DNA of 43,693 nt. Origin: Clostridia bacterium. Lineage in GTDB: Bacteria > Bacillota > Clostridia > Oscillospirales > CAG-272. The stretch spans positions 1-43,693 of the forward strand of contig JAFTOB010000068.1 in NCBI GenBank assembly GCA_017451545.1, read 5' to 3'. The notes beneath the pieces were generated by a model. The model worked only from the letters and a program-made list of their open reading frames with translations. It searched no databases and was not told where the DNA came from. This document shows positions 27,104 through 35,933 of this stretch, in pieces. Every line of letters starts with the position of its first letter. Positions within the stretch are counted from its first letter, which is position 1. A program made the translations under genes and the position numbers.

Positions 27104-27178
27104 GGCCCGTTGGTCAAGCGGCTAAGACACGGCCCTTTCACGGCTGTAACATGGGTTCGATTCCCGTACGGGTCACCA
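27104..27178 (+). tRNA. tRNA-Glu (TTC)
   Basis: 75 nt. Acceptor GGCCCGT/ACGGGTC, anticodon stem CGGCC/GGCTG, loop CTTTCAC (anticodon TTC), T-arm ATGGG-TTCGATT-CCCGT, encoded CCA. Depends on read-through from the tRNA-Met promoter. Confidence 0.95.
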
Positions 27179-27227
27179 AAAAAGAGCAGGAGCACATTCG
27201 TGCTCCTGCTCTTTTTTGGTGACCCGT
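27168..27227. terminator. Terminator hairpin extending into tRNA-Glu acceptor end
   Basis: Positions 27168-27195 and 27200-27227 are perfect 28-nt inverted complements with loop ATTC. The outer 11 bp of the left arm are the 3' strand of the tRNA-Glu acceptor stem plus discriminator and CCA; the inner part (AAAAAAGAGCAGGAGCAC and its complement) is an ordinary intrinsic terminator with a T6 run. Confidence 0.9.
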
Positions 27228-27600
27228 CGGACGAACACAACGCGTGCTTTTAAGCTTAGCTTGCAACCAAGTAAAACTCCACCGCACGCGTATGGGTTCG
27301 AATACCCCGCCCGGAGATCTGAAAGCTCGCTTTCAAGGCGAAGGGCGTGGGTATCATCGCCACCGGCGATATTCCCGTACACAACCTTAATTTTTATGAC
27401 ACCGAATGGTGTGCTTTTTCGTTTTTGGTGACCCGTCGGACGAACGGGGCGCGTGCTTTTAGGTTTATCTGAAAACCAAGAAAAACCTCACCGCACGCGT
27501 ATGGGTTCGAATACCCCGCCCGGAGATCTGAAAGCTCGCTTTCAAGGCGAAGGGCGTGGGTATCATCGCCACCGGCGATATTCCTGTACGTAGCTTAAAG
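27213..27600 (+). repeat. Two tandem 209-nt tRNA-Glu-linked cassettes
   Basis: Occupies the 500-nt gene-free gap between tRNA-Glu and the rubredoxin gene. Period 209 nt; the cores 27280-27380 and 27489-27589 differ at one base in 101. Each unit starts with TTTTTGGTGACCCGTCGGAC (inverted tRNA acceptor end) and has a GCGTGC..GCACGC stem pair. It then has a T-arm half GGGTTCGAATACCCC, hairpins GAAAGC/GCTTTC and ATCGCC/GGCGAT, and ends in ATATTCCCGTAC, like the other half of the tRNA-Glu T-arm. Short open frames across it are not convincing genes. Confidence 0.85.
27399..27419 (+). terminator. Small terminator ending first tRNA-Glu cassette
   Basis: ACACC-GAAT-GGTGT stem-loop followed by GCTTTTT. 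The same ACACC-GAAT-GGTGT core is used in the tRNA-Lys terminator at 35833-35846. Confidence 0.6.
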
Positions 27601-27639
27601 TTTCAAAGCGCAGTCGAAAACTCCATACTCTCGCCCCAA

Positions 27640-35550: not shown

Positions 35551-35857
35551 GGCTTAAATGCACACGCCGGGGCCGATAGGTTGTGGATCACAAAAAAGAG
35601 AGCACACACCGAATGGGCTATAAGGTGAAATCAGGTTTGTCCTTTGCCCGGGAATCCGCCCTCTGCTTCGCTTCGGCGGCGGAATCCTCCGAGCCGTCCG
35701 TGAGCAAGCTCCCGACGTCTTCCGTCGGATTCTCGAACCCGCTGCGTGTGCGGATTCGTTTGCTTTGACTTTATGTATGGCTTAAATGCACACGCCGGGT
35801 TAGATAGGTTGTGGATCACCAAAAAAGAGGGCACACCGAATGGTGTGCCCTCTTTTT
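35551..35857 (-). repeat. tRNA-Lys-linked cassette and duplicated end segment
   Basis: 35551-35616 and 35779-35843 are ~65-nt direct repeats (about 90% alike) containing GCACACGCC or GTGCATTTAAGCC (minus) and GGTTGTGGATCAC. Between them, read on the minus strand, come GCACACGC, then CGGGTTCGAGAATCCG (35726-35741), a GAGCTTGCTC hairpin, and GGATTCCCGGGC (35657-35646), matching the tRNA-Lys T-arm halves. The order of parts is the same as in the tRNA-Glu cassettes although the sequences differ. Confidence 0.75.
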
Positions 35858-35868: not shown

Positions 35869-35933
35869 CCGGGAATCGAACCCGGGACACCTTGATTAAA
35901 AGTCAAGTGCTCTACCGCCTGAGCTAGTGGATC
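35858..35933 (-). tRNA. tRNA-Lys (TTT)
   Basis: 76 nt on the minus strand: acceptor GATCCAC/GTGGATC, D-stem GCTC/GAGC, anticodon stem CTTGA/TCAAG with loop CTTTTAA (anticodon TTT), T-arm CCGGG-TTCGATT-CCCGG, encoded CCA. Confidence 0.97.

Follow-up and report, generated by a model that had tools for sequence, protein, structure and literature searches.

Tandem hairpin-bearing units behind tRNA genes of gut Clostridia as probable mobile DNA cassettes that enter through the T-loop

We found that two tandem units behind tRNA-Glu in the window (the whole 43,693-nt stretch of DNA analysed here), together with their relatives in other genomes, are quite probably mobile DNA cassettes that enter tRNA genes and tmRNA through the T-loop. 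From the sequence alone the units had been read as an undescribed small RNA family, a tRNA decoy or a non-coding mobile element targeting tRNA T-arms, and it is the last of these that is borne out by empty and occupied sites, cognate tRNA halves, tandem growth and relatives at many tRNAs. In the arrangement that we propose, a cassette would run from a tRNA 3′ half (R-E) through a terminator palindrome, a partial inverted copy of the 3′ half (E′-L′), hairpin A and L-TTCG to the hairpins B and C. It would go in between TTCG and the 3′ strand of the T-stem, so that its own R-E, the first bases of the cassette, would rebuild a working tRNA and the old 3′ half would be left behind B/C, where each old copy would usually persist only as a 7-nt R box. 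Arrays would arise by repeated insertion at the tRNA-proximal side or by tandem duplication, and single tandem steps could be ordinary unequal crossing-over; some cassettes would bring a promoter and genes. Comparison of sequences shows insertion inside the tRNA, its restoration, cognate ends, conserved DNA-like hairpins, gene cassettes, a shared cassette and exchange between genera.

ARAGORN identified tRNA-Met, tRNA-Glu(TTC) and tRNA-Lys in the window, and an Rfam scan of the same stretch returned tRNAs only. Two 209-nt tandem units do follow tRNA-Glu, visible as a direct repeat (27210–27394 and 27419–27603, spacing 209 nt) on its 3′ side, and the core reported to differ at one base was recovered, as the longest one-mismatch stretch at an offset of +209 is exactly 101 nt (27280–27380). 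This core folded at −42.3 kcal/mol (z −3.87), and none of 200 shuffles folded equally well. Both copies carry the expected halves of the tRNA-Glu(TTC) T-arm, GGGTTCGA and ATTCCCGTAC, the second reading ATTCCTGTAC in copy 2. The ACACC-GAAT-GGTGT terminator, however, is not terminal as had been stated and sits between the units, from 27398. A feature absent from the sequence-only reading is a perfect 28-nt inverted repeat (27168–27195 and 27200–27227) that mirrors the 3′ end of tRNA-Glu.

Unit 1 is best read as beginning within tRNA-Glu, at 27160, since it includes the 3′ half and the terminator of that tRNA. The host gene occupies 27104–27178 on the (+) strand, as do all features of this array, and is called by ARAGORN and Rfam; by the site logic of empty and occupied tRNA-Arg(CCT) sites, its 3′ half from 27160 would have been supplied by unit 1. 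Site comparison places the target, TTCG^A in the T-loop, at 27156–27160, with insertion after 27159. Unit 1 (27160–27370), delimited by its repeats and by analogy with the occupied and empty sites, then comprises R-E, a terminator palindrome (27179–27217) and E′, an inverted copy of the tRNA 3′ end (GGTGACCCGT, 27218–27227), both recognised from the inverted repeat, E′-L′, hairpin A (ACGCGTGC / GCACGCGT, 27240–27291), L-TTCG, a copy of the T-stem 5′ strand plus TTCG (27290–27300) that is supported by the cognate-end test below, and hairpins B and C (27301–27370), the conserved site defined by covariation and by the covariance model R1. The displaced R box, ATTCCCGTAC, follows as a copy of the T-stem 3′ strand (27371–27380). 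Unit 2 (27371–27579, 209 nt, assigned from the repeats) has its palindrome from 27398, E′ at 27427–27436, L-TTCG at 27499–27509 and B/C at 27510–27579, and the last displaced R box, ATTCCTGTAC with one change, lies at 27580–27589. The window's own units carry no genes, and a search for an empty site syntenic with the window's own tRNA-Glu found none.

The tRNA-Lys cassette named in the sequence-only reading was found on the minus strand at 35876–35656, behind tRNA-Lys(TTT) (35933–35858, minus strand, ARAGORN). It follows the same plan, and its tRNA-derived pieces (R-E, E′ and L) are of the Lys type; hairpins B/C lie at 35733–35656. Next to it, at 35655–35520 on the same strand, are an R box (35655–35646) and a degenerate second Lys unit with terminator, E′ (GTGATCCAC) and the start of hairpin A. 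Beyond this second unit, between 35440 and 35530 on the minus strand, the inverted repeat GTTCTCTGTGTT / AACACAGAGAAC points to one more insertion. The genome of the window is a 2.38 Mb bin, in which the same plan recurs behind tRNA-Glu(CTC), tRNA-Arg(CCT) and tRNA-Gln(TTG). At both the TTC and the CTC tRNA-Glu genes of genome G001 (L237, L242), which have the same T-arm, we observed nearly the same unit, which suggests copying within the genome between genes with identical T-arms.

The point of entry was read from empty and occupied tRNA-Arg(CCT) sites within one genus. At the occupied locus L219, two units follow tRNA-Arg(CCT), and the last hairpin is succeeded by ATTCCCGTTGCGGGTGCCA and flanking DNA. 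The flank behind this displaced 3′ half matched the flank behind the tRNA 3′ half at three empty sites (112/118 identical positions with L211, 105/119 with L228 and 114/118 with L234), whereas the L219 flank adjoining the intact tRNA did not match (54/141 against L211). Insertion of the first unit therefore took place within the tRNA gene, and the 3′ half now completing the tRNA arrived with that unit. At L234 the tRNA is itself represented by a 3′ half that a different integration left behind, and the flank common to the four loci resembles a repeat found behind other tRNAs; for these reasons a second occupied and empty pair, L208 and L209, whose flanks are 93% identical over 195 bp, carries weight. 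The exchange could be placed between G57 and C61 from T-loop positions 58–60, since ATT loops keep ATT at 23 of 29 sites, AAT loops read TAC at 21 of 30 and AGT loops read AAT at 6 of 7. Downstream copies retain positions 61–67, with identity running from 0.96 to 0.81, and fall to background from position 69 on; the match filter inflates the identity over 61–67 but not the sharp fall. Like tRNA-integrating islands, the units are thus found inserted in a tRNA gene whose 3′ end is restored.

Some copies of tRNA-Arg(CCT) (G159:C5:70632, G427:C114:11555, G317:C136/C114 and G377:C97) are halves with a break near the anticodon, of the kind that conventional integrative elements leave. At L219, L211, L228, L234, L352 and L353, a repeat that has a hairpin and the arms CACTTTTCACT and GTAATAGTGAA is found within arrays and downstream of several tRNAs; it is possibly another mobile element.

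The layout of an array, a tRNA 3′ segment followed by its inverted copy and again by itself, with hairpins at both turns, resembles the product of fold-back replication. Template switching at tRNA terminator palindromes, giving an inverted triplication that slippage then amplifies with no dedicated mobility, would also suit the long perfect palindromes through tRNA ends and the near identity of tandem units. We nevertheless regard it as a very improbable source of the arrays: the flank comparison places the first insertion, with a foreign terminator, inside the tRNA; the conserved B/C hairpin is foreign to tRNAs and common to genera and tRNA kinds; and gene cassettes vary between species, with 96% identity between genera for one unit. 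These points contradict template switching for the founding of an array, while part of the tandem growth may be so explained.

Cassette ends are cognate to the tRNA they adjoin, as tallied for 83 cassettes that together cover 16 tRNA species. The pentanucleotide in front of TTCG matched the adjoining tRNA at 4.22 of 5 positions, as against 2.50 ± 0.10 for other tRNA kinds, and the far side (R) at 7.53 of 10 as against 5.50 ± 0.09; a displaced 3′ half was present downstream at 46 loci, with 4.6 expected when the sequence of other tRNAs was used. These counts come from related genomes and so are not independent, but relatedness is not the explanation of a contrast between tRNA kinds within one set. 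Units of one core type occur at many tRNAs with ends matching each, which means that retargeting requires a further step outside the cassette model.

Seven cores from five genomes fold as a three-way junction made up of hairpin B, which has a conserved internal loop, hairpin C and, on the outside, the two T-stem halves; compensatory changes are seen in 14 of their 32 pairs. The covariance-model search of the core with R1, proposed beforehand as a check, returned matches in 126 of 395 genomes of the family (mostly metagenome bins) and 28 of 71 genera. Outside the family, R1 matches came from single genomes in three further families of the same order, and in two of these genomes the element stands behind tRNA-Pro or tRNA-Gln. 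A DNA pattern of hairpin B only, free of T-arm letters, found 80 loci, mostly in herbivore-gut Oscillospiraceae and Clostridia bins, and in phages, plasmids and IMG/VR there was no match to the window units or to the exact B-hairpin pattern. Units at non-tRNA sites with unrelated flanks, named in advance as what would speak against the association, are not the rule: 91 of the 122 distinct R1 matches have a called tRNA within 1.5 kb, first copies typically 66–145 nt beyond the tRNA end. Of the matches that are not near a called tRNA, most start near a contig edge or come after a fragment of a tRNA gene or after tmRNA, which is among the targets; for 26 of the 122 the locus includes no tRNA, and many of these 26 are near a contig edge. 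A few matches, such as L131 and L135, have no visible tRNA.

The genome of the window also holds arrays of other hairpins with spacers GTGAAATA or ATATCATC (L043, L034, L029, L051, L042, L046 and L050), which lie behind tRNA-Ala, Arg, Tyr, Leu, Gln/Arg, Trp and Ser, respectively, and may be further unit types; an other-hairpin array at L273 likewise ends in a displaced tRNA-Gln R box. At tRNA-Pro(CGG) (L262, 6570–7180; L092; L149), tandem tRNA 3′ halves from the anticodon loop on are mixed with B/C units, so that two different integration points are stacked at one tRNA.

Strong covariation and a stable fold would equally be expected of a conserved small RNA family or tRNA-like decoy transcribed 3′ of tRNAs, in which the T-arm halves, able to pair as a T-stem, would mimic that stem and act on tRNA processing or modification enzymes; the position behind tRNAs fits as well. 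The covarying fold is indeed present, with 398 cells changed on both sides as against 136 in shuffles among 92 distinct sequences, but the tolerance of G-U pairs that marks pairing at the RNA level is not. Only 17 of 1374 paired cells in hairpin B are G-U (1.2%), compared with 73 of 437 (16.7%) for the T-stem in that alignment, a stem that derives from real tRNAs (Fisher p 1e-31). The units also sit behind tRNA terminators. At some tRNA-Ser genes, moreover, the array lies at the 5′ end on the opposite strand, where the array sits at CCACTTCG^ATA and the split site reads CCACTTCG|ATATCTCTCC, the reverse complement of the tRNA start. The low G-U content, the reversed tRNA-Ser arrays and the position behind terminators are in keeping with a hairpin selected as DNA and a DNA target TTCG^A, and argue against a small RNA. 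The same three observations leave the earlier proposals of an undescribed small RNA family and of a tRNA decoy unsupported, and since genes between units and insertion inside the tRNA gene also count against it, a transcribed RNA as the basis of these units seems to us highly improbable. The tRNA-Ser sites bear on one more candidate that was rejected: snap-back reverse transcription from the tRNA terminator, giving an inverted 3′ end and a stop near m1A58, suits the palindrome, but opposite-strand sites at tRNA-Ser 5′ ends do not fit it.

Genes are often found downstream of the displaced R box TACCCTAGTGCC at tRNA-Gln(CTG), headed by one type of promoter-like sequence (TTTACAT ... TATAAT); a terminator, E′, hairpin A, L-TTCG and another B/C come after them. 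At L257, L272, L273, L275, L276, L284, L285 and L248, near-identical promoter-like sequences (TTTACATTYC..TATAAT..AGAAAGGCGGTG) stand immediately past the displaced 3′ half of the tRNA and precede unrelated genes. The genes vary among species of one genus and encode a DUF3267 peptidase, a SASA esterase, a polysaccharide deacetylase, a lipoprotein and small membrane proteins. One cassette, for a 172-aa membrane protein, is third in both L257 and L321, where it is preceded by different cassettes; its two copies are 82% identical in DNA over 664 bp, ending just past L-TTCG, and in another genus a homologue also stands behind tRNA-Gln, preceded by two units whose hairpins are of a different type. 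Two genera share one unit at 96% identity over 261 bp; it adjoins the tRNA in one genus and lies 3.1 kb away in the other. As compared here, the gene-carrying tRNA-Gln units thus behave as a cassette array: as in integrons, cassettes with variable genes stand in tandem, each with a folded site.

For the mobile cassettes that we favour, movement would probably depend on a recombinase that works in trans and recognises the folded B/C site, with a circular cassette intermediate, probably folded as L-B/C-R, being joined to the tRNA T-loop; the strand used and the entry of new units at the tRNA are likewise presumed. The check for integrase or transposase association that the sequence-only reading had proposed identified no recombinase. 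No recombinase family recurred among 127 ORFs within 3.5 kb of the arrays, as judged on the 25 commonest of 149 families, and the cassette ORFs tested included no recombinase. Y1 transposases were not associated with the units (counts 50/76/89/180, OR 1.33, p 0.21) and are absent from the genome of the window; neither within nor with the elements was the Y1 of IS200/IS605-like elements found. A miniature single-strand transposon (IS200/IS605-like, PATE or REP type) that inserts after TTCG, with B and C as its end hairpins, and is carried within tRNA tandem duplications would account for hairpin ends with DNA-like pairing, for the fixed TTCG to the left of the insert and for the lack of a duplication at B/C. 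Besides the Y1 results, however, a tetranucleotide target leaves tRNA-only sites with cognate ends unexplained, and the flank comparison indicates that the whole unit was inserted, not B/C alone; we consider such a transposon improbable. Left of B/C there is TTCG and two hairpins are present; the right end depends on the tRNA.

Among PF00589 matches, the only recombinase common to the eight array-bearing genomes checked is one Xer-like tyrosine recombinase of ~340–357 aa, present once per genome (L243 at G000:C30, and L293–L299), which may act at dif or at the cassettes. The two of these proteins that were scored reached 86 and 78 bits on the integron integrase model TIGR02249 (cut-off 265) and 223 and 215 on XerC, scoring best on XerC/XerD and far below the IntI cut-off; no IntI was found with TIGR02249 applied to part of the PF00589 matches of the eight genomes. 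The attC consensus has core boxes RYYYAAC / GTTRRRY; these were not seen around B/C, whose conserved left flank is L-TTCG and whose right flank is the cognate R box.

Integron gene cassettes and CALIN arrays (attI, attC, IntI), with integrons defined by IntI and attC boxes (PMC8618304), offer a close parallel in organisation. In common are tandem cassettes from a fixed anchor, a folded hairpin site at each cassette end with a conserved short box to its right, variable and mostly unknown genes, and shared cassettes beside different neighbours; the proposed insertion geometry is that of attC × attI. Here, in contrast, no IntI was found and no attC R/L boxes were seen, cassettes are anchored in tRNA T-loops at many loci and have tRNA-cognate ends, many are non-coding, and gene cassettes have their own promoter. 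The arrays may therefore work like integron cassette arrays, but with no IntI found and no attC motif we do not class them as integrons. The closest published insertion site is that of the Dehalococcoides ssrA-specific islands, which enter the tmRNA gene halfway along its T-loop and form tandem stacks by means of the serine recombinases DsiB/DsiA (PMC3146451). Mid-T-loop insertion, the 3′-end direct repeat left behind and tandem stacking are shared, whereas those islands are large, encode their own integrase and use one target gene, and the basic units here are ~130–210 nt, carry no genes and occupy 16 tRNA species; an element-encoded integrase, as in tRNA-integrating islands, is accordingly missing from the basic units.

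Tycheposons, tRNA-integrating islands, satellites and phages share a tRNA anchor, an element that supplies the 3′ end, and tandem stacking, and usually encode a tyrosine recombinase specific to one tRNA. No such recombinase was found here, and many tRNAs share the hairpin site. REP/RAYT, IS200/IS605 and PATE elements are short, palindromic, non-autonomous DNA with a fixed short target; the units differ in having no Y1 association, in their tRNA-cognate ends and in insertion of the whole cassette. In the open literature, as incompletely covered here, we found no description of hairpin-ended, mostly non-coding cassettes at multiple tRNAs.

Tentatively, and with somewhat less than even confidence, we put forward a new class of gene-cassette capture in gut Clostridia, in which a non-IntI recombinase would read folded DNA hairpins and capture coding and non-coding cassettes at the T-loops of many tRNAs and of tmRNA, each cassette carrying a tRNA end that keeps the host gene alive, so that tRNA genes would serve as parallel integron-like platforms. 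Model R1 provides a search tool, and the proposal makes clear predictions for finding the enzyme. A mobile element of this unusual kind would be harmless only where it matches its target tRNA, so that its choice of target and its retargeting could be put to the test. If the proposal is true, integron-like cassette capture would exist outside IntI/attC and would enter through tRNA genes across the whole genome, in a family of herbivore-gut bacteria where variable genes spread by unknown means.
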